NCBI GenBank assembly: GCA_020850355.1
Contig: JADZEX010000037.1
Location: forward strand, 1 to 64,000
Source of the DNA: Fimbriimonadaceae bacterium
Lineage (GTDB): Bacteria > Armatimonadota > UBA10988
Length of the DNA stretch: 64,000 nt
Direction: 5' to 3'
Shown here: piece after piece, positions 19,828 to 51,695 of the stretch
How positions within the stretch are numbered: the first letter of the stretch is position 1
Layout of the letters: every line of letters begins with the position of its first letter
Program-made: the position numbers and the translations under genes
The notes under the pieces: generated by a model
The model's input: the letters and a program-made list of their open reading frames with translations, nothing else
What the model was told of the DNA's origin: nothing
The model's database searches: none

Positions 19828-21300
19828 ATGGCGGAGTTGGATGGCCGGACACGATTGCGGCTGGCGGGTCTCGATCTGGACCTGCCGGGCCGGGCTGCGG
19901 CCGCGGCGGGGGCGCGGTTCTGTGCCTACACAGGTCGCGAGCTGACCTTGCAGTGGGACGACGGCGGGACCGCCGACAGCGCTCGGCTGGGGCTCGACGC
20001 CTTCACCACGGCCGGTCACCTGCTGCGCTACGAACCCGGTGGAGCGGCGGCCCGGCTGCTCGACCCGACGCTCCGCGAGTGGCGCCAGAGCGTCGATCTG
20101 TTCGCCAGCGCCGCGCTGCCGGTGCCGGACAGCGCGCTGCGGCGGGCGGGCGATGAACCACCCGTCGAGAACTGGCAGTTGCTGGCGGCCGGGATGGGTG
20201 AGGTGCGCGGCGTGGTGGTGCGCCACGGCCGGCTCTACGCGCTCAACAGCTACGGCGCCGAGAGCCATGTGGTGCAGGCGTGGCGGCTGCCGCGGGGGCT
20301 CGCCGCGGGAGGCTGGCGCCCGCCACGGGTGCGCGGTGGGTTGCTGCCGGCGCAGGGCTGGCGGCCGGGCAGCGAGCTGCGGGTTAGCGAGTCGCTGGTC
20401 TACCTGAACCTGGTCGACCGCCTCGGTGGCTGGCACGCGGGCCACGGCGAGCACTGGATCGACTGGCCCTGGCCCGGCGGCAGCGCCGTGCTGGCGCGGC
20501 TCGCAGGCGACCGGCTGTTGCTGGTCCGGCAGGACGCCAACGGCCTGGTGGCCGAGGTCTACGACCTGGCGGCGGTCGCCAGCGGGCCCTGCCGGCCGTT
20601 GCCGGGGCAGGCTCGGCTGCTGGGCGAGCTGCCGGCCGGACAGGCGCAGCCGCTCTGGGCCGAAGCCCACGAGGCGGCCTTCTGGGTGCTCAGCGCCGAC
20701 GGGCGGATCCACTGCTTCCCGTTCGACGGTCCCCCACAGGAGGTCTTCGGCAACGTCGAGGAGGTGCGCCTCGGTCCGCCGGCCTTCCGGGGTACTGGTC
20801 AACAGGCCGACCTGGTGGCGTTCTGCAGCAACGACCGCGGCCGTTGGCTGCTGGAGCTGCCGCTCGACCGCACCCGACCGTACCGCTTTACGCCCCTCCG
20901 CGAGCGGGCCGTGGCGAGCTACGAGTTGCCGCCCTGTTTCCTGGGCGGACGGCAGATCGACGCCCACGCGGCGACCGCGGAGAATGTCCAGGCGCTGCGT
21001 TGTCTGACGGGGCAGTGCGACCAGATCGACGAGCGTGCCGAGGTGCCCGGCACGGCCGGCTCCCGGGTCGACGGGCTGCAGCGCCTGCTCTGCGGCGGCC
21101 AGGAGCTGTTGGTGGTCGAGTACACCCAGAGCACCCGCCGCTTCTGGTTCTGTGACGCCGGCCTGCAGCGGCTGACCGTCGAACCGCCGTTCCCACAACT
21201 GCGCGCCGCTGATGAGGTGCGCCTGCTCTGGGATGCGGCCGGGATCTACCTCTGCGACCTCGCCAACGGCGTGGTCCATGCGCGGAGCCCTCAGGCATGA
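19828..21300 (+). CDS. Uncharacterised Trp-rich protein of the tubulin-like/VWA locus
   Basis: This 490-residue protein has no signal peptide or membrane segment and is not recognised. Repeating strand-turn-strand stretches with regularly spaced Trp, Tyr and Asp ([72 protein letters not shown]) are what a beta-propeller would look like. This is a pattern reading, not a domain hit. Its stop overlaps the start of the VWA gene as ATGA (21297-21300), so the two are translationally coupled. It is the first gene of the four-gene unit, and no good promoter or ribosome site was found. It may be a scaffold or regulator of the GTPase filament, but no function is shown. Confidence 0.7.
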
Positions 21301-22664
21301 ACCTTCGAGCGCTCGGGCTGCTGGTCTGGATCGCCCTGCCCCTGGCGGCGCAGGAGATGCGCGACAATCCGCAGACGCCGCGCGAGTTCTCGCGGGCGGT
21401 CGCGAAGGTGGTCCGCAAGTACCCCGAAGTCTGCACCAGCCGCGTCCGCTGGGTGGTCGGCTTCGACATCTCGCGCAGCGGCATGGGTCGCTGGAGCGAG
21501 TGGGCGCGACAGGTGGTCAGCGACCTGATCACCTTCGTGATGGTCGACGGCGACACGCTGCTGCTGCTGCCTTTTGACCATCAAGTCAACCCGCCGCGGG
21601 GGAAGTGGCCGGGTGGCAGCCGCTATCCGACCTGGCCGATCACCACCGCCAGCAAGCCGGCTATTCGCACCGAGGTGGCCGACCTGCTGTTGTGGCGCAG
21701 TGGCACGCCCGATGGTACGGCCTGGGTGCAGGCCGTGCAGACCGCGCTGAAGCTGACGGCGCAAGGCAGCGGCGGGCAGGCGAACCTCTGCCTGGTGATC
21801 AGCGACCGCGACTCGTCCGACCTGATCGCCGACGAGCGGAGCATCGTGCAGAAAGCGCAGGGGCTGCAAGAGCCGGGCCAGAGCCTCTGGCCGGTGCCGC
21901 GCGACACCAAGCCGATTGTGCTGCTGCACGCCGCGGGGGTCAGACGGCCGGCGCAGCGCGTCGTGGTCGACCGCTACATGCCGCCCTGGGAACCGCCCGC
22001 GGCCGCCGCCTCGCGGTTGCTGCCGCGACCGGCCGCGGCGCCCGACCGGCGCGGCCGGGTGGTGCTGTGGCTGGTCGTGGTGGTGCTCCTGGCCGTTGGG
22101 CTGCTGCTGCTGCTCACCGGGCTGGCCGCGCGGCAGGCGGTGCAGGTGCGGTGGGGCGGGCGCGATGGCGATGCCTCGCGACAGGTCAGCGTGAGCCTGG
22201 CGACCGGCCAGACCCGGCTGCTCGGCGCCGCCGGTGAAGCCACCGCCGATCCCTTCACGCTGTACTGCGACGGCGCTGCCAGCGAGGTGCAGCGGAAGCT
22301 GGTGCTGCCCGACCTGGGCGGTCTGACAGCGACCGCCGATGGCCTGCGGCTGCGCACCGCCGACCATTACCTGGTGCGCCCGGCGGGAACCAACGACTGG
22401 GACAACGAGTTGACCCTGCGGCGCGGGCAGGTGCAGTGGTTGGAGTTCCGCCTGGCGTCGCAGACCTGGCTGCTGACGCGCCAGCCGGTGGGCCTGCAGG
22501 CCACCGCGCGCGGCGCCGACTGGCGGCAGCGCGTGATCCTGGGCGGTGTGGCGTTGCTGCTGGCGCTGCTGCTGCCGGTCTTCGTACGGCCGGTCGCCCC
22601 GCCGCCCAGCCTGCCGCTGCCGGCACCCGCCGCCGGGCCGGTCAGCGAGCCGTTCTGCCAGTAG
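21297..22664 (+). CDS. Membrane-anchored von Willebrand factor A-like protein
   Basis: The 455-residue product has a signal peptide or N-terminal anchor (about 1-19). A VWA-like domain spans about 50-215. The metal-ion (MIDAS) DxSxS motif is present as D57-I-S-R-S61 after a hydrophobic strand, with candidate partners T141 in GTPDGTAW and D170 in LCLVISDRD. A Pro/Ala-rich linker leads to a strong transmembrane helix (about 255-278). A beta-rich domain (about 280-405) follows, then a second membrane helix (about 410-428). The start codon overlaps the previous stop by four bases. VWA proteins bind partners through the metal site, and this one is the likely membrane partner of the tubulin-like protein. 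Distant VWA homology is read from motifs. Confidence 0.75.
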   Translation: MNLRALGLLVWIALPLAAQEMRDNPQTPREFSRAVAKVVRKYPEVCTSRVRWVVGFDISRSGMGRWSEWARQVVSDLITFVMVDGDTLLLLPFDHQVNPPRGKWPGGSRYPTWPITTASKPAIRTEVADLLLWRSGTPDGTAWVQAVQTALKLTAQGSGGQANLCLVISDRDSSDLIADERSIVQKAQGLQEPGQSLWPVPRDTKPIVLLHAAGVRRPAQRVVVDRYMPPWEPPAAAASRLLPRPAAAPDRRGRVVLWLVVVVLLAVGLLLLLTGLAARQAVQVRWGGRDGDASRQVSVSLATGQTRLLGAAGEATADPFTLYCDGAASEVQRKLVLPDLGGLTATADGLRLRTADHYLVRPAGTNDWDNELTLRRGQVQWLEFRLASQTWLLTRQPVGLQATARGADWRQRVILGGVALLLALLLPVFVRPVAPPPSLPLPAPAAGPVSEPFCQ

Positions 22665-22698
22665 GCAGGTCATAGTTGGTGGTGGGAGAGCAGGCCTG

Positions 22699-23007
22699 AT
22701 GGATCCGGTGACGATCGCCGCGGCAGTGGGGCTGCTGCTGGTTGGGGAATGGCTGGTCGGCCATGTCGTCCTGTTCCTGCTGCTGCATCGCGCCGCTGGG
22801 CTGGCGGCGGGCGTGGCAGTGCGGCTGGGGCACCTGCTCGGTCTGCTGCTGGGCTACGCCAGTGCGGCGACGCTGCCGCTGACCGCTGGGGCGGTGGTCT
22901 GCTGGAGCGGCCAACTGCTGCCCGGCGCGGTGCTCGCCGCCGGCGCTGCCATCTGGGCGTTGCTGCTGGCGGTCCTGCCGCCCGGGTTCGCCAGCGATAC
23001 CGTCTGA
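22699..23007 (+). CDS. Small three-helix membrane protein of the tubulin-like locus
   Basis: The 102-residue product is almost entirely hydrophobic. It has probable membrane helices at about 5-28, 32-62 and 68-95, with short polar turns. No family is recognised. The ATG at 22699 is preceded by GGGAGAG. The gene lies 34 bases after the VWA gene and 18 before the tubulin-like gene, so it belongs to the same transcript. It could be a membrane adaptor or channel-like subunit, inferred from position alone. Confidence 0.75.
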   Translation: MDPVTIAAAVGLLLVGEWLVGHVVLFLLLHRAAGLAAGVAVRLGHLLGLLLGYASAATLPLTAGAVVCWSGQLLPGAVLAAGAAIWALLLAVLPPGFASDTV

Positions 23008-23025
23008 TCGAGAGGGAGGCCCGCG

Positions 23026-26000
23026 GTGGACATCGCCGTCAATCCGACTCTGGTGCTGGCCCTCGGCGGGACCGGGCAGAACATCCTCAACCGCCTGCGG
23101 CGCCGGATCCGCCAGCGGCTCGGCACCGACCGCCTGCCGTTGGTCGAGTACGTCTACGTCGATACCGACCAGGGCAACAAGGACGCCGGCGAAGCGACCG
23201 GCGATGGCATTCCGATCGGCCTCAGCCCCCAGGTCGCGGCCGATCTGGCTGACCTGCAGGGCCGCGCGGCGTTGGAGCTGGACCTCGCGAGTTGGCTCAG
23301 TGAGGACGCGCTCGACCGCCTGCGCCGCGGCACGCTCGGCGGCGCGCAGGGCTTTCGGCAACTCGGGCGGGTCAGCTTCCTGGCCAGCCAGAAGCTGCGC
23401 GAGCTAAGCACGCAACTGCGCGAGCGGGTCGGCAACCTGCTCGAAGCGCGCCAGGAGCACCTGCACAAGGAGCTGCCGAACCTCCAGCCGAAGTACCTGC
23501 GCCACCGCCTGCAGGGCGCCGGGCCGAAGGTCTTCCTGTACGTCCTGGCCTCGGCCGGCGGCGGCACCGGCAGCTCCTGCCTGATCGACGTCGGCTACTT
23601 CGTCCGCCGCGCCCTGCGCGAGAGTGGCTACGAGGCCGACGTGCGGCTGATCGGTGTGGCGCTGCTGGCCTCCAGCGCCTTCGAGGAGCAGCACCAGTAC
23701 CGCTACAACTCCGGCGGCGTGCTGACCGAGCTCAACCACTACCTGCGTCGGCCGGCCTACAAGGCCGCCTATCCGCTGGCGTTCCCCGGCGACCCGCTAC
23801 GGCCCGACCTGCCCCGCGGCGACCGCCTGTTCGGTGTCGCGACGATGCTGCCGTTCGACTACCAGTACGTCGTGCAGCCGGCGACGATGCACGGCGGCAG
23901 TCTGGACCCCGACAACCCGCCGCGGGCGATGGCGCACCTCGAGCAGAAGGTCGCCGAGATGATCCTCGCCGACACCCTCTTCGCGGCGGCGCCGGGCGCG
24001 ATGGAGTACGACCGCGCCAGCGTCCCGCCCAGCCCCCCGGCGGTGGTTCAGCGGGTGCTCAAGGGCGAGCTCGAATCCCGCCGGATCGACTTCGCCGGGC
24101 GCGCCCGTAAGGTCAACTACGACGGCCGCTACCCGACCGACCTGCTGACCTTCGGGGTCAGTTGCTACGAGTTCCCGGCAGCCCTGCACCATGTGCTGGC
24201 CTTCGGAACGGCCGTCCGCGAGCTGGCCGGGCGCTGGAGCAGCAGCCCACGACGGGATCCGAACGCCGGGCCTGATGACCTCGGCCAGCCGCTCGCCAAC
24301 CTGCGGCTGCGCACTTGGATGGACCGCCTGACGCTGCTCGCCGACGAGCGCGAGTACGCCGAACAGCGTTCGCGCGAGGCCGGCGGCGACCAACTGCTGC
24401 GGGCGCTGTTGGAACTGCCCGACAGCGATCCACGCCAGCAGTTGCTGGCGGCTGCCACGCTGCAGGCCGCGGGCCAGGAGACACGCCCCGAGGCCTGGCT
24501 GCAAAGCCGCCGTGGCGCGGTCGACTCGTTGCTGGTCGAAGTCGCCGACACGCCCTTGCCGGGTCAGCCTGGGGCGGTCGCAGCGCGGCTGCGCGACCGG
24601 CGGCAGCAACTCGCCGGCTGGAGCCCGGCGGGGTTGCCCTACCAGGTGGCGAAGGACCTGCTCGACCTGGCTTTCGACGCCGATGCCGGCCCCGGTGCGG
24701 CGCTGGTCCTGGCGGAGCGCCTGGCCGCCCGGCTGCGACTTGAGCTGGACTGGGTAAGGCTCTGCCAGCAAGACCCCGCGGCCCCGACCCCAGCCGTGGT
24801 GCGGGCGGCCGAGCAGCGGCGCGACTGGCTGCTGGTCGGCTGGCACCACCACGTCGGCGCGCCGCCCGACACTGGCGGTGTGGCGGCGGAGGCCTGGCAG
24901 CACGCCAATCAGCGCCTGCTGCGGCTGGTGTTGCAGGGCAAGGCGGCTGTGCTGGAGGGTTGTCTGGCCGCCGTCGAACGTCTCCGGCCGCGGCTCCGCA
25001 ATCTGCGCGACTGGCTGGCGGCGTGGCCCGCGCGACTGCCCGATCCCAACGACCCGGATTACCAGATCAACGGCGAGGAAGCCGGCTACGTGTTGCGCGA
25101 CGAGGCCCTGCTCGCGCAGTTCGCGCGGCTCGACGGCCTTGCCGACGGTCTGCGCCAGGCGCTCGGCCAGGTGCCGCTCTACCGCCAGTTGCTCGACGAC
25201 ATCGCTCACGGGCTGCCGAGCACCGCCGCCGACGGCGGTCCGGCGCTGCTCTTGGAAGGGCCGCCGCTCGACCGGCGGCGCAACCAGCCCGACTTCAGCG
25301 CCCTGGAAGCCATCGAAGCCGCGGTCTTCGAGGCCATTGGCGCGCGGCGCGACGGGCCGTATCAGCAGGAGGTGATCGAGCTGCTCAACCGCCGCGCAGC
25401 CGCGGCGGGCACGGCGCTGCCGAACTTGCAGGCCGAGGCCTCGCCGCTGCTGCAGTTCGAGGCCAACAACACCGGCTACGCGATGGACTGCCGCTTCGGC
25501 GGCGATGTCGAGCTGTGGCAACTGCTGGCGGCGGCCGATTCCCTGGGCTACGAGCAGTTCGAGCAGACGATCACCCGGCAGCAGGGCGGCGTGCGCTTCC
25601 CCGACACGCCCGAAACCAAGATGCAGCAGGTCGACACGATGATCCCGGCGGTGGTCACCGTGCTGCGGCATCGGATCGGGATCGTCTCGCCGTTGATCAA
25701 CGGCTACGACGAGGGCACGGTCCGCCGATTGCTGCGCAACGCGGCGCATCCGGCGCTGACCGACACCCGGATCCGGCCACCGCTGGAGCCGAACCTGCTG
25801 TGGGAGTGTGGCTTCAAGATCCTGGGCGGGCTGATCCTGGGTCACCAGGTGGTCTTCGATGTTGAAGACCAGCGCTTCCTGTTCAGCTACAACGTGCGCG
25901 ACAAGGCGGGCTTCAGCCGCACCCAGAAGCTGACCTTGCCGATGGAGTTCGACGCTGCCTACGAGCAGTTGGCGTTGGCCGACCAGGATCTGGCGGAGCT

Positions 26001-26418
26001 CGACGCGCGACTGCGGCTGAAGGTCTACGAACTGGGTGAAGGCGTCACGGCGCGGCTGGAGGAGGTGATCGCGCAGATCGATCGCGCCCGCACCAGCAAC
26101 AGCCCCGACTGTCTGGCGCAGCGCTTGGATGTCTGGTCGCGCGACGGGCAGGCCTCCGGCGTGCTGCTGACCCGCTTGCCTTACGAGGATGCGCTGAGCC
26201 TGCTGACCAGCTTTGCCCTGGAGTACGGGATTCGCTGCCGGATCGAGTTCCAGCACCATTACGCCGACTTCAAGCGGGCGGGCGACACGATTGTCGGCGG
26301 GGTGGCCCAGACCGACGGCTGGTTCTGCCGCTTCTGCGGCGTCTACCACGGCGGCACCGTGCCGGCCGGCAATCGGACCTGTTCGCAGTGCCGCAACCTG
26401 CAGGCCACGGCCCGCTGA
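23026..26418 (+). CDS. Large FtsZ/tubulin-superfamily GTPase (Tubulin_2-like) with C-terminal zinc ribbon
   Basis: The 1130-residue protein starts with a tubulin-type nucleotide-binding domain. LALGGTGQNIL (G14-G17) is the first loop, YVDTDQGNKDA (43-53) corresponds to the FtsZ T3 region, and ASAGGGTGSS (G178-S184) is the tubulin/FtsZ signature. After about residue 400 the protein is a long Arg/Leu-rich alpha-helical region, unlike FtsZ. It ends with four cysteines in two CxxC pairs (1101/1104 and 1119/1122), a zinc ribbon. It has no signal peptide, so it is cytosolic. It matches the 'tubulin-like' family previously linked by genome context to VWA proteins in a predicted membrane-remodelling system. 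Length is near that family's 1000 or more residues. The start GTG has AGGGAGG upstream. Confidence 0.82.
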   Translation: MDIAVNPTLVLALGGTGQNILNRLRRRIRQRLGTDRLPLVEYVYVDTDQGNKDAGEATGDGIPIGLSPQVAADLADLQGRAALELDLASWLSEDALDRLRRGTLGGAQGFRQLGRVSFLASQKLRELSTQLRERVGNLLEARQEHLHKELPNLQPKYLRHRLQGAGPKVFLYVLASAGGGTGSSCLIDVGYFVRRALRESGYEADVRLIGVALLASSAFEEQHQYRYNSGGVLTELNHYLRRPAYKAAYPLAFPGDPLRPDLPRGDRLFGVATMLPFDYQYVVQPATMHGGSLDPDNPPRAMAHLEQKVAEMILADTLFAAAPGAMEYDRASVPPSPPAVVQRVLKGELESRRIDFAGRARKVNYDGRYPTDLLTFGVSCYEFPAALHHVLAFGTAVRELAGRWSSSPRRDPNAGPDDLGQPLANLRLRTWMDRLTLLADEREYAEQRSREAGGDQLLRALLELPDSDPRQQLLAAATLQAAGQETRPEAWLQSRRGAVDSLLVEVADTPLPGQPGAVAARLRDRRQQLAGWSPAGLPYQVAKDLLDLAFDADAGPGAALVLAERLAARLRLELDWVRLCQQDPAAPTPAVVRAAEQRRDWLLVGWHHHVGAPPDTGGVAAEAWQHANQRLLRLVLQGKAAVLEGCLAAVERLRPRLRNLRDWLAAWPARLPDPNDPDYQINGEEAGYVLRDEALLAQFARLDGLADGLRQALGQVPLYRQLLDDIAHGLPSTAADGGPALLLEGPPLDRRRNQPDFSALEAIEAAVFEAIGARRDGPYQQEVIELLNRRAAAAGTALPNLQAEASPLLQFEANNTGYAMDCRFGGDVELWQLLAAADSLGYEQFEQTITRQQGGVRFPDTPETKMQQVDTMIPAVVTVLRHRIGIVSPLINGYDEGTVRRLLRNAAHPALTDTRIRPPLEPNLLWECGFKILGGLILGHQVVFDVEDQRFLFSYNVRDKAGFSRTQKLTLPMEFDAAYEQLALADQDLAELDARLRLKVYELGEGVTARLEEVIAQIDRARTSNSPDCLAQRLDVWSRDGQASGVLLTRLPYEDALSLLTSFALEYGIRCRIEFQHHYADFKRAGDTIVGGVAQTDGWFCRFCGVYHGGTVPAGNRTCSQCRNLQATAR

Positions 26419-26435
26419 CCACCGGAGAACAACAG

Positions 26436-27836
26436 ATGCGCCGGCCCAACATCCTGCTGCTCTACACCGACCAGCAGCGCTGGGACGCTGTCGGCTGCAA
26501 TGGCAACACCGACCTGCAGACCCCACACCTCGACGCCCTGGCCGCTGCCGGCACCAACTGCACGCACTGCTTTGTGCAGAACCCGGTCTGCATGCCCAGC
26601 CGGGTCAGCTTCCTGACCGGCCGCTATCCCAGCAGCTTGGGAATCACCCACATGGGGGTCCCCGTGCCGCCCGACACGCTGACCCTGCCGCGGATGCTGC
26701 GGCCCTACGGCTACCGCACCGCGAACCTCGGCAAGCTGCACTTCCAGCCTCACGCCAATCGCGACCACCGCGCCCCGCACCCCGACTACGGCTTCGACGA
26801 ACTGGTTCTGAGCGATGAGCCGGGCGTCTACGAAGACGCCTACCGGGCCTGGGTGCGCGCCATGGCGCCCGACCAGTTGCCGCACCTGAGCGTCGGGCTG
26901 CCGCCTGCGACCGCCGTCTGGTACCGCCAGATGGGCCTCCGCGACAGCGTGCCCCACCCTTCCGAGGGCGGCCGCTTCGACACCAAGGGGCCGCGGGCCT
27001 TTCCGGGCGACGAGCGCTACACCCACAGCGCCTTCGTCGGCGAGATGACCTGCCAGTTCTTGCGGCAGCAGGACCCGCGGACGCCGTTTCTGTGCATCGC
27101 TGGGTTCTACTCGCCGCACTCTCCGTGGGTCGCGCCGCAGCGCTGGCTGGAGGCTTACGACCCGGCGCGGCTGCGGCTGCCCAGCTTCCCGCCGGAGGTT
27201 GAGGCGCGGCGCGGCGGCGACTTCGACGACCACCACCTGCGCGGCGCGCGGCAGGGTTACTACGCGATGGTCAGCGAGGTCGACGCGCAGGTCGGGCGCA
27301 TCCTGGCCACCCTCGAGCAGCAGGGCCTGGCCGAGGAGACGCTGGTGGTGTTCACCAGCGACCACGGCGACTGGCTCGGCGAACACCTGCGGTACGGCAA
27401 GGGCTACCCCGGCGACGACGGCTGTACGCGGGTGCCGTTGCTGCTGCGCTGGCCCGGCGGCGGGCAGGCGGGCAGCGTGGTGGACCACCTGGTCGAGCAT
27501 GTCGATGTGCTGCCGACACTGCTGCAGGCCGCCGCCGTGCAGCCCCCGCCGAGTTGTCAGGGCCGTCCTCTGCAGGACCTGCTGGCGGGCGGCGCGGCGC
27601 GGGGCTCGGCGCTCTGTGAGCACCACGGCTGGAAGTCGCTGCGGACCGCGACGCACCGCTACCTGGTCCACGCCGACGGCCGCGAGCTGCTCTACGACCT
27701 GTCTGCGGAGTGGGGTGATTACCGCGACGTGGCCGCCGACCCGGGCCAGGCGGCGGCGCTGTCGGAGCACCGCGGCCGGCTGGCGGTGCGGCTGCTGCAG
27801 CAGGAACAGCCGCTGGAGCGGACCTGGCCCTACTGA
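26436..27836 (+). CDS. Sulfatase (formylglycine-dependent, type I)
   Basis: The 466-residue product carries the type I sulfatase signature C52-M-P-S-R56, whose Cys is converted to formylglycine. Metal-binding aspartates lie in LLLYTDQQRWD near the N-terminus and in FTSDHGDWLGEH (Asp-His pair). FYSPHSPW and GKLHFQPH contribute other active-site positions. No signal peptide is obvious, so it may be cytosolic or exported by another route. Family members remove sulfate esters from glycans or small molecules. The ATG has GGAG upstream and follows the tubulin-like gene by 17 bases, with the GH30 gene 11 bases after. A glycan-desulfating role with that hydrolase is inferred. No maturase (anaerobic SME or FGE) is in the window. 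Confidence 0.92.
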   Translation: MRRPNILLLYTDQQRWDAVGCNGNTDLQTPHLDALAAAGTNCTHCFVQNPVCMPSRVSFLTGRYPSSLGITHMGVPVPPDTLTLPRMLRPYGYRTANLGKLHFQPHANRDHRAPHPDYGFDELVLSDEPGVYEDAYRAWVRAMAPDQLPHLSVGLPPATAVWYRQMGLRDSVPHPSEGGRFDTKGPRAFPGDERYTHSAFVGEMTCQFLRQQDPRTPFLCIAGFYSPHSPWVAPQRWLEAYDPARLRLPSFPPEVEARRGGDFDDHHLRGARQGYYAMVSEVDAQVGRILATLEQQGLAEETLVVFTSDHGDWLGEHLRYGKGYPGDDGCTRVPLLLRWPGGGQAGSVVDHLVEHVDVLPTLLQAAAVQPPPSCQGRPLQDLLAGGAARGSALCEHHGWKSLRTATHRYLVHADGRELLYDLSAEWGDYRDVAADPGQAAALSEHRGRLAVRLLQQEQPLERTWPY

Positions 27837-27847
27837 AGGAGCTGACG

Positions 27848-29356
27848 ATGGCTGGACGGCGAGCGGGACGGCGCAAGCTCGTGCTGGGCGCCCTGGCCGC
27901 CGGCGGTGGGATCGCCTGCCGGCGGCTACGGGCCGCCGGCGACGAGAGCGTGATGCTGCAGCCGGAGCTGCTGGGACAGACCATCGAAGGCTTCGGCGCG
28001 TCCGGCTGCTGGACCTTCGACCCGGTCGGGGTCGCCTGGAGCGCGCCGAACCTGGCGCGCCTGGCCGACCTGCTGTTCAGCCCGGCCGACGGCATCGGCC
28101 TGTCGCTGTGGCGCTTCAACATCGGCGCCGGGCACGCCTGGGCCGGCCAACTGTGGGACCCCTGGCGCGGCGCCGAGTGCTTTCGGCGGACGGCCGACGA
28201 AACCCCCGACTGGTCGCGGCAGGCCGGCCAGCAACGCTTCCTGGACCTGGCCTGGGCCCGCGGCCTGCGGCAGGTGGTTGGGTTCACCAACAGCCCGCCC
28301 GTCTGGCTGACCGTCAACGGCAAGGCGACCGGCGATCAGCAGACCGGGTCGACCAATCTGCGGCCCGGCGCGGCGCCCGAGTTTGCCGCCTTCTTGGCCG
28401 ATGTGGCGGAGCACTTCCAGCGCCGTGGCACCCCGCTGACCACCATCAGCCCCATCAACGAGCCGAACTGGGAGTGGACCGGCGGCGGCCAGGAGGGCTG
28501 TCGGTACAACAACGACGACCTCGTCACGGTGATCCGCGCGGTCCACGCCGAGCTGACCCGCCGCCGGCTCAGCCCCGACCTCGAGACGCCCGAAGCAGGC
28601 GACCTCAACTCGTTGCTGGCCGACGATTTGCACCAGCGGTGGTCGGGCCAGGGGGTCTACCGCGGCGGCAACAACAAGCTCGGCAAAGGCCGGTACGGCG
28701 CTTACTGCAGCACGCTGTTGGAGCCGACCGACCTGCGCCAGATCCTCGGCGGCGCCATTGCCGCGCACTCCTACTGGACCGATCAGGGCGAGCGCAATCT
28801 GGTCGGCCTGCGGCGGACGCTGCGCGAGAATCTCGACCGCCTGGCGCCGGGACTGCGTTATCGACAGACTGAGTATTGCGTGATGGAACACAAGCGCGAC
28901 CTGGGCATGGCGATGGCGTTGCGTGTGGCGCGGGTGATCCACCACGACCTGGCCGACGCCGGCGCCAGCGTCTGGACCTGGTGGCTGGCACTCTCGCCGG
29001 GCGACTACAAGGACGGCCTGCTCTACACCGACTGGAAGCAGACCGGTCAGCAGAACATCCTGGTGTCCAAGACGCTCTGGGCGCTGGGCAACTACAGCCG
29101 CTTCCTGCGTCCCGGCTGGCGCCGGATCGGCTGCACCGCGCCGGCCGGCCTGTTGGCGACGGCCTGGCTCAGCCCGGACAGCCGCCAACAGGCGCTGGTG
29201 GTGGTCAACTCCGGCGGCGAGCGGGCGCTGCGCCTGCCGGCCGGCGCCTGGACGGCCCACGTCACCAGCGCCGCCGCCGATCTGGCCGCGCAGCCGGTGG
29301 GTGCGACCTGCAACCTGCCGGCGCAAGCCGTGGTGACACTCTGCAGCCCGGTCTGA
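27848..29356 (+). CDS. GH30-family glycoside hydrolase
   Basis: The 502-residue product starts with a twin-arginine-like segment (GRRAGRRKLVLGALA), so export may use the Tat or Sec route. The catalytic domain begins with TIEGFGASGCW, the start typical of GH30. The acid/base is E205 in SPINEPNWEW and the nucleophile is E342 in YRQTEYCVM. The C-terminal about 90 residues form the beta-sandwich that accompanies the barrel in GH30. GH30 includes endo-beta-1,6-galactanase, glucuronoxylanase and glucosylceramidase subfamilies. NSPPVWLTVNGK and the motif order are closest to the galactanase type, but this is tentative. It follows the sulfatase gene closely on the same strand. Confidence 0.88.
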   Translation: MAGRRAGRRKLVLGALAAGGGIACRRLRAAGDESVMLQPELLGQTIEGFGASGCWTFDPVGVAWSAPNLARLADLLFSPADGIGLSLWRFNIGAGHAWAGQLWDPWRGAECFRRTADETPDWSRQAGQQRFLDLAWARGLRQVVGFTNSPPVWLTVNGKATGDQQTGSTNLRPGAAPEFAAFLADVAEHFQRRGTPLTTISPINEPNWEWTGGGQEGCRYNNDDLVTVIRAVHAELTRRRLSPDLETPEAGDLNSLLADDLHQRWSGQGVYRGGNNKLGKGRYGAYCSTLLEPTDLRQILGGAIAAHSYWTDQGERNLVGLRRTLRENLDRLAPGLRYRQTEYCVMEHKRDLGMAMALRVARVIHHDLADAGASVWTWWLALSPGDYKDGLLYTDWKQTGQQNILVSKTLWALGNYSRFLRPGWRRIGCTAPAGLLATAWLSPDSRQQALVVVNSGGERALRLPAGAWTAHVTSAAADLAAQPVGATCNLPAQAVVTLCSPV

Positions 29357-50456: not shown

Positions 50457-51602
50457 TCAGCGCTCCCGCAGGAAGCCGGGGATGTTGAGGTCGTCATCGC
50501 TGGGGCTGCTGACCCGCGGCTCGGGCGCCGGCGTCGGCGGCGGCGCCGGGCTGCCAAAGGTGGGGCGCTGCGGGGCGCCAGTGCTGCCAAACAGGCCAGG
50601 CCCCTGCGGATTCCGTTGGGGCGCCAGCCGCGGCTGCGCGGTGCCGTCCGCCGCGACGTCGAAGCCGGTCGCGATCACGGTGATCCGCAGATCCTCGCCC
50701 ATCCGGTCGTCGAGAATCACGCCGAAGAAGACGTTGCTGTCGTCGACCCCGGCTGCCCCGGCGATCCGCTCGGCCGCCTCGCTGGCTTCGTTGACCGACA
50801 GGTCGCTGCCGGCGGTGATGTTGAATAGAATGCTCTTGGCGCCCTTGATGCTGCCTTCCAGCAGCGGGCTGGTGGTGGCGGCGACGGCGGCCTGCGCGGC
50901 GCGATTGTCGCCGCTGCCGTACCCGATCCCCATCAGCGCGCTGCCGGCGTCCTTCATCACGGCCCGCACGTCGTTGAAGTCGAGGTTGATCAGACCGGGA
51001 GTAGTGATCAGGTCGGCGATCCCCTGCACACCCTGCCGCAGCACGTCGTCCACCAGCTTGAAGGCCTCGATCATCGGCGCGCGCTTGTCGACGATGGCCA
51101 TCAGGTTCTCGTTGGGCACGGTGATCAGGGTGTCGACATGCTCCCGCAGCGCATCCAGCCCGAGCCGGGCGACCTCCTGTCGCCGCCGGCCTTCAAAGCC
51201 GAACGGGCGGGTCACCACGGCCACCGTCAACGCCCCGGCCTCGCGGGCGCAGGCGGCCACGACGGGGGCCGAGCCGGTGCCGGTGCCGCCGCCCATGCCG
51301 GCGGTGATGAAGACCAGGTCGGCACCCTCGACGACCGCCTGGATGTCGTTCTTGTCTTCCTCGGCGGCCAGCCGGCCCTTCTCAGGATCGCCGCCGGCGC
51401 CGAGGCGGCGGGTTACCACCTCGCCGACCTGCAGGCGCACATCGGCCTTGGAGTCGGCCAGGTCCTGCGCATCCGTGTTGACCGCGATGAACTCGACGCC
51501 GCGCAGACCAGCCTCAACCATTCGGTTGATGGCGTTGCCACCGCCGCCGCCGCAGCCAATCACCTTGATCCGCTCGTACGACTCACCTGCCAGGCCGGCC
51601 AT
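50457..51602 (-). CDS. ftsZ: Cell division GTPase FtsZ
   Basis: The 381-residue product forms the division ring at mid-cell. [17 protein letters not shown] and the tubulin signature [15 protein letters not shown] (104-110) bind GTP, and NTDAQDL is the T3 loop. A linker rich in Pro and Gln/Ala (about 315-365) precedes the conserved tail [13 protein letters not shown], the site that binds FtsA or other partners. GGGAGG precedes ATG 51602. The gene is not beside ftsA, ftsQ or mur genes. It lies between a pilin-like gene and a GT2 gene, which is an unusual neighbourhood, and it is not the only tubulin-superfamily gene in the window. Confidence 0.97.
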
Positions 51603-51695
51603 GAACACTACCTCCCGTCCAACCGCGCCCGGCTCGGCCACCGAGCGCGCGGATCGTCCTGTCGCGCAAGCACCACCCCAGCCCAGCGCCGTCAG

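Follow-up and report, generated by a model that had tools for sequence, protein, structure and literature searches.

A conserved four-gene unit encoding an FtsZl1/Tubulin_2 GTPase and a VWA-like membrane protein in Armatimonadota

Within a 64,000-nucleotide stretch of the genome of a Fimbriimonadaceae bacterium (contig JADZEX010000037.1, positions 1 to 64,000; hereafter the window), four closely packed genes of the forward strand encode a tubulin-like GTPase, a VWA-type membrane protein and two further proteins that a preliminary description of the sequence had considered unexplained. Do these genes form a genuine unit and, if so, what kind of machine do they specify? Our analysis demonstrated that they constitute a conserved, co-inherited, operon-like unit, whose protein families and GTP-binding motifs have been established. 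The best reading is that the locus represents a genuine and sparsely described branch of a bacterial membrane machine known from prediction, a new subtype of the FtsZl1 family defined by Makarova and Koonin (2010; PMC2875224) and not a one-off, since joint inheritance of the four genes extends over part of the phylum.

Organization and conservation of the unit

The unit is composed of (i) gene 1 (positions 19828-21300; 490 amino acids), encoding a zinc-ribbon/beta-propeller family protein with no predicted transmembrane segment, (ii) gene 2 (21297-22664; 455 amino acids), encoding a VWA protein with a likely signal peptide and two transmembrane segments, (iii) gene 3 (22699-23007; 102 amino acids), encoding a three-helix membrane protein, and (iv) gene 4 (23026-26418; 1130 amino acids, GTG start), encoding the FtsZl1/Tubulin_2 GTPase. 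Genes 1 and 2 share an ATGA overlap (21297-21300) and are probably translationally coupled; gaps of 34 and 18 bases separate genes 2 and 3 and genes 3 and 4, respectively. The analysis of open reading frames (ORFs) thus reproduced the coordinates, overlap and gaps given in the preliminary description. A gene caller based on codon usage selected the same four genes, with the start of gene 1 perhaps at 19855; all four ORFs are intact and show typical codon usage. A scan for sigma-70 promoters detected none, and terminators were found at chance level. Horizontal transfer of the unit was also considered and rejected, as the G+C content of the four genes (71-74%) is in line with that of the window (71.5%).

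Tubulin_2 proteins are encoded in 84 of 291 Armatimonadota genomes, and genes were called around 61 of these matches. Lack of a conserved gene order had been named as a refutation of the unit, and the order gene 1-VWA-gene 3-tubulin was found to hold at 11 loci, in 10 of the 291 genomes and in five families. Outside the family of the window genome, G031, G253, G255 and G274 each encode, in this order, a zinc-ribbon or propeller-like protein, a VWA-like protein, a small protein with two or three helices and the GTPase. A profile of gene 1 (A2) gave strong matches in 10 of the 291 genomes, plus five weak ones, and a profile of gene 3 (A3) recovered the identical 10 genomes, with all 11 matches located directly upstream of a Tubulin_2 gene. 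Six of these genomes had seeded the two profiles. The complete order is present in all four independent ones (G039, G040, G041 and G254), the unit being split across two contigs in G039 and the GTPase gene being cut by the contig end in G041 and G254; they represent fewer than four independent events, because G039-G041 belong to one genus and G254 shares a genus with G253. Because the complete unit is present elsewhere as well, its arrangement is not a matter of chance.

In a tree of 62 GTPases, obtained in a quick run with a simple model, the loci of this module fall into one group of eight rows (92% support in the Shimodaira-Hasegawa-like approximate likelihood ratio test); the eighth row, L090, comes from a contig that begins at the GTPase gene, so that its upstream genes are not visible. 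A scan of genome contigs yielded a single relative, CALLMM010000011.1 (Chthonomonadales). Phage records contained no match, and plasmid matches were confined to Deinococcota. At one further locus (L133, G209:C114:84192 region), gene 1, VWA and multi-helix genes occur together with no adjoining tubulin gene; G209 carries three Tubulin_2 genes on other contigs.

The four proteins

The assignment of the gene 4 product to the tubulin family, as originally proposed, was borne out by a match to PF13809 (Tubulin_2, FtsZl1) over residues 12-385 (E 4e-33; 115.6 bits versus a cut-off of 27). Both GTPase motifs named in that proposal are present: the first as ALGGTGQN (residues 12-19) and the second as GGGTGSS (residues 178-184), of which G178-S183 are invariant in an alignment of the GTPases of the window, G031 and the second copy of the unit in the same genome (contig C57). 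A CxxC..CxxC zinc knuckle is located at the C-terminus (residues 1101-1122). Profile-profile comparison of 56 members of the GTPase family with 24 FtsZ proteins of Armatimonadota gave an E value of 1.8e-6 (probability 90%), five control comparisons giving values of at least 0.18, and placed the GGTG, VDTD and GGGTG motifs in register with those of FtsZ. These motifs predict GTP binding; polymerisation of the protein is hypothetical.

The genome also carries two FtsZ genes (window positions 50457-51608, reverse strand, and G000:C62:44393-45505), whose products share 43% identity. Counting the FtsZl1 pair as well, the genome encodes four tubulin-superfamily GTPases. Relatives in the family and order of the window genome have two FtsZ genes as well.

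Membership of the tubulin superfamily, together with the membrane partners encoded in the unit, is compatible with a membrane-remodelling or vesicle-forming cytoskeleton, in which the GTPase would polymerise on the inner membrane and bend it. Such a role was proposed for the family by Makarova and Koonin (PMC2875224); however, these authors could not identify the T6-H7 filament elements in FtsZl1, the FtsZ alignment obtained here likewise ends before them, and a reviewer of that paper favoured transport or signalling. We regard the remodelling explanation as rather doubtful, if worth retaining.

The gene 2 product contains the predicted residues of a metal ion-dependent adhesion site (MIDAS): D57, S59 and S61 (DISRS, residues 57-61), T141 and D170. 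D57, S59, S61 and D170 are invariant in alignment A6; T141 was assigned by motif and is substituted in some relatives. The two helices noted initially correspond to transmembrane segments near residues 255 and 412, separated by a soluble segment of approximately 140 residues, to which a likely signal peptide can be added. The Pfam VWA profile did not match this protein, and scored the C57 homolog at 16 bits (cut-off 27); the VWA label therefore rests on the motifs and on homology to the VWA-like proteins of other loci (reciprocal hidden Markov model search, E 2.8e-10). The protein also matched ITIH1 in the PDB with an E value of 0.02. The hydrophobic N-terminus suggests that the VWA domain is exported.

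Hydropathy analysis supported the three helices of the gene 3 product, at residues 10, 33 and 74. It shares 43% identity with its C57 homolog over 70 residues and matches the small proteins of other loci in profile-profile comparison (E 1e-7). Small proteins with two or three helices occupy the same position at further Tubulin_2 loci, including that of Deinococcus deserti. Homology to the 108-amino acid small membrane protein of Deinococcus was not detected, and the latter was retained only as a positional analogue.

Homologs of gene 1 are present in C57 (30% identity) and G214. Its relatives carry an N-terminal zinc ribbon (RYCPYCG in L094, the G031 locus) that has degenerated to RYCPYTG in C57 and to RFCAYTG in the window protein, which has lost most of the ribbon cysteines. 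A profile of the window group matched the zinc-ribbon proteins whose genes precede VWA in four further genomes (profile-profile E 1e-19; comparisons with unrelated families, E of at least 0.15). Reciprocally, when the window group was left out of the profile, the search still detected the proteins of the window, C57 and G214 (E 4.5e-13 to 6.5e-11), and no other neighbourhood protein matched. The propeller-like character suggested for gene 1 obtains weak support from a partial match of the family profile to BamB (8orr; E 2.6e-4, BamB residues 34-141); the AlphaFold2 model is too poor to confirm it. No lipoprotein signal was seen, and the protein is predicted to be cytosolic. Pfam, NCBIfam and PADLOC returned nothing for genes 1 and 3. 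These genes are not the orphans they had been taken for, since both define conserved families co-inherited with the GTPase.

The second copy and its partners

A search of the window's own genome with PF13809 gave two matches, the window locus and contig C57. The latter retains all four genes in unchanged order, and its genes 1 and 2 again overlap by ATGA; identities to the window proteins are 30% (gene 1), 30% (VWA) and 42% (GTPase, full length). Downstream of its GTPase gene, C57 encodes a 283-amino acid protein with one transmembrane segment, a 637-amino acid coiled-coil protein with three, a 276-amino acid OmpA-domain protein and, further on, a 310-amino acid protein and an 896-amino acid zinc-ribbon protein. 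None of these follows the GTPase gene in the window. Its downstream neighbours there, both on the forward strand, encode a sulfatase (26436-27836, 17 bases past the GTPase gene) and a GH30_2 enzyme (27848-29356), which occupy the slot held by trypsin-like and Hsp70-like genes at sister loci. These two genes are possibly co-transcribed with the GTPase gene; they are probably not part of the machine itself.

Where sequence beyond the GTPase gene is visible in the other copies, that gene is followed by one for a membrane-anchored trypsin-like protein (PF13365, E 2.6e-25), whose Ser motif is retained at some loci and lost at others. An Hsp70-like zinc-ribbon protein (PF00012, E 1.3e-13) is encoded near most of them; this family was found in 12 neighbourhoods of the first locus set and in two independently found genomes. 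The protein adjoining the Hsp70-like gene shows a weak GrpE match (0.0013) at some loci. The four-gene unit of the preliminary description was therefore correct in its gene order, which recurs elsewhere, but misleading in its boundary, because sister loci hold additional conserved genes with no counterpart in the window copy.

The absence of the partners found at sister loci with visible downstream sequence, and the loss of most ribbon cysteines from gene 1, could be taken to mean that the window holds only a decaying remnant, or that its four genes are mere neighbours. Set against this are the intact ORFs with typical codon usage, the intact GTPase and MIDAS motifs, the conserved coupling of genes 1 and 2, and the maintenance of the order in five families. 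This explanation is already disfavoured, and we consider it highly improbable.

The C57 OmpA-domain protein matches OmpA (E 6.6e-12) and, over nearly its full length, ZorB (E 3.2e-24). The Asp at the start of its single membrane segment, typical of MotB stators, is kept in this protein and its relatives (7 of 7). The preceding gene encodes the coiled-coil protein, which is MotA-like by homology, its L089 homolog scoring above the PF01618 cut-off. These features make it probable that what PMC2875224 termed a porin-like OmpA-family partner at FtsZl1 loci is, in the present examples, a subunit of a stator. MotA/MotB (ZorAB-like) pairs lie beside the tubulin-like GTPase in C57 (L003:10848-13612) and at L102:12199-14053, and also occur in L069, L074, L077, L089 and Deinococcus deserti.

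The similarity to ZorB raises the possibility of a conflict or defence machine, in which VWA sensing, assisted in the larger versions by the ZorAB-like stator and the protease, would answer phage or envelope attack. Consistent with this, a VWA-tubulin pair on a Meiothermus taiwanensis plasmid (L103, NZ_CP021131.1, 7297-11688) is flanked by the defence genes HmaC and BrxL. However, PADLOC gave no match in the four window proteins, no ZorC/D/E-type match was found among the C57 genes tested, and ZorB models are expected to match MotB proteins generally. A defence function thus appears improbable.

At four other loci (L051, L054, L087 and L095), the GTPase gene is followed by one encoding a protein of approximately 900 amino acids that is itself distantly related to Tubulin_2 (profile E 2.5e-11), suggesting a subtype built on a two-subunit tubulin-like pair. 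The genes upstream of the L054 locus (positions -4 to -6) have a type III CRISPR (Cmr)-like appearance, judged from N-terminal sequence only.

Proposed function and relation to known systems

In the explanation that we favour, on a judgement that is evenly balanced, the window unit is a pared-down paralogue of a complex that spans the envelope and has a cytosolic GTPase of the FtsZl1 type at its centre. The VWA domain would be exported and held by its two membrane segments, the segment between them being cytosolic. The three-helix protein might serve as a membrane dock, and the zinc-ribbon/propeller protein as a scaffold or an adaptor for clients in the cytosol. GTP binding would toggle the GTPase between a free and a membrane-assembled state, which could link the arrival of a signal or a ligand at the external MIDAS site to assembly on the cytosolic side. 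In the C57 paralogue and in relatives, the core would be joined to the membrane trypsin-like protein, the Hsp70-like ATPase and, in some, the GrpE-like partner, and in C57 to a MotAB/ZorAB-type ion-driven stator as well; the window copy may use those partners in trans.

Because such partners (trypsin-like, Hsp70-like, stator) join the core in C57 and relatives, the evidence suggests an envelope maintenance or stress machine and not a division ring, for which the separate FtsZ genes, that of the window and the second one, are available. A bolder version, which we think unlikely, would place the tubulin-like GTPase, the Hsp70-like ATPase, the proton-driven MotAB/ZorAB-type stator and the exported VWA sensor in a single complex reaching from the cytosol to the peptidoglycan, with the window copy as its minimal GTPase-sensor core.

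Several observations weigh against the envelope-spanning complex. The FtsZ alignment stops before the T6-H7/T7 region, which could not be recognised in the family, as was also reported in 2010. The charge bias around the transmembrane segments of the VWA proteins is mixed, and leans the opposite way in the window protein, and the trypsin-like protein of C57 has lost its Ser motif. The AlphaFold2 models of the GTPase (predicted local distance difference test, pLDDT, 33.5; helical at low confidence) and of gene 1 (pLDDT 37.7) are uninformative, because their two-sequence alignments held only the window protein and that of one other locus. The literature searched contained no experimental study of FtsZl1 proteins, whether a GTPase, a polymerisation or a membrane assay, and a 2023 study regarded FtsZl1-type proteins as divergent and did not include them (PMC9871819).

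PMC2875224 already listed families of uncharacterised proteins associated with FtsZl1 genes. In the literature searched, we found no description of the subtype group, of its propeller and three-helix proteins or of the partners at sister loci; a partial one may exist in the 2010 supplement. The four-gene core offers a tractable subtype with a fixed partner set, and the recurring trypsin-, chaperone- and stator-like partners provide concrete, testable ideas on what the GTPase is coupled to.

With the canonical FtsZ of the window, gene 4 shares nucleotide motifs that align in order; it differs in lacking a recognisable T7/C-terminal FtsZ domain and in possessing approximately 750 extra residues. 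The gene 1 family resembles BamB/PQQ-type propellers in its profile match, but gene 1 shows no lipoprotein signal, is predicted to be cytosolic and carries a zinc ribbon in its relatives. The C57 paralogue resembles the Zorya ZorA/ZorB and MotA/MotB stators in its ZorB-like gene and in its MotA-like gene for a coiled-coil protein, whereas the window unit has neither ZorA nor ZorB, and Zorya effectors were not recognised among the C57 genes tested.

The closest system remains that of the FtsZl1 loci, and the unit fits the combination of FtsZl1/Tubulin_2 and VWA to which the preliminary description had linked it. Shared features are the N-terminal FtsZ-like GTPase domain with its GGGTG loop, a length of approximately 1000-1100 residues, the adjacent DxSxS VWA gene and, at some loci, OmpA-domain partners. 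The unit is distinguished by its fixed propeller and three-helix partners, by the trypsin-like and Hsp70/GrpE-like neighbours at its sister loci, and by the resemblance of the C57 OmpA-domain partner to a MotB/ZorB stator subunit and not to a porin, which, if the stator interpretation is true, would correct the porin-like view of the "OmpA family" component.

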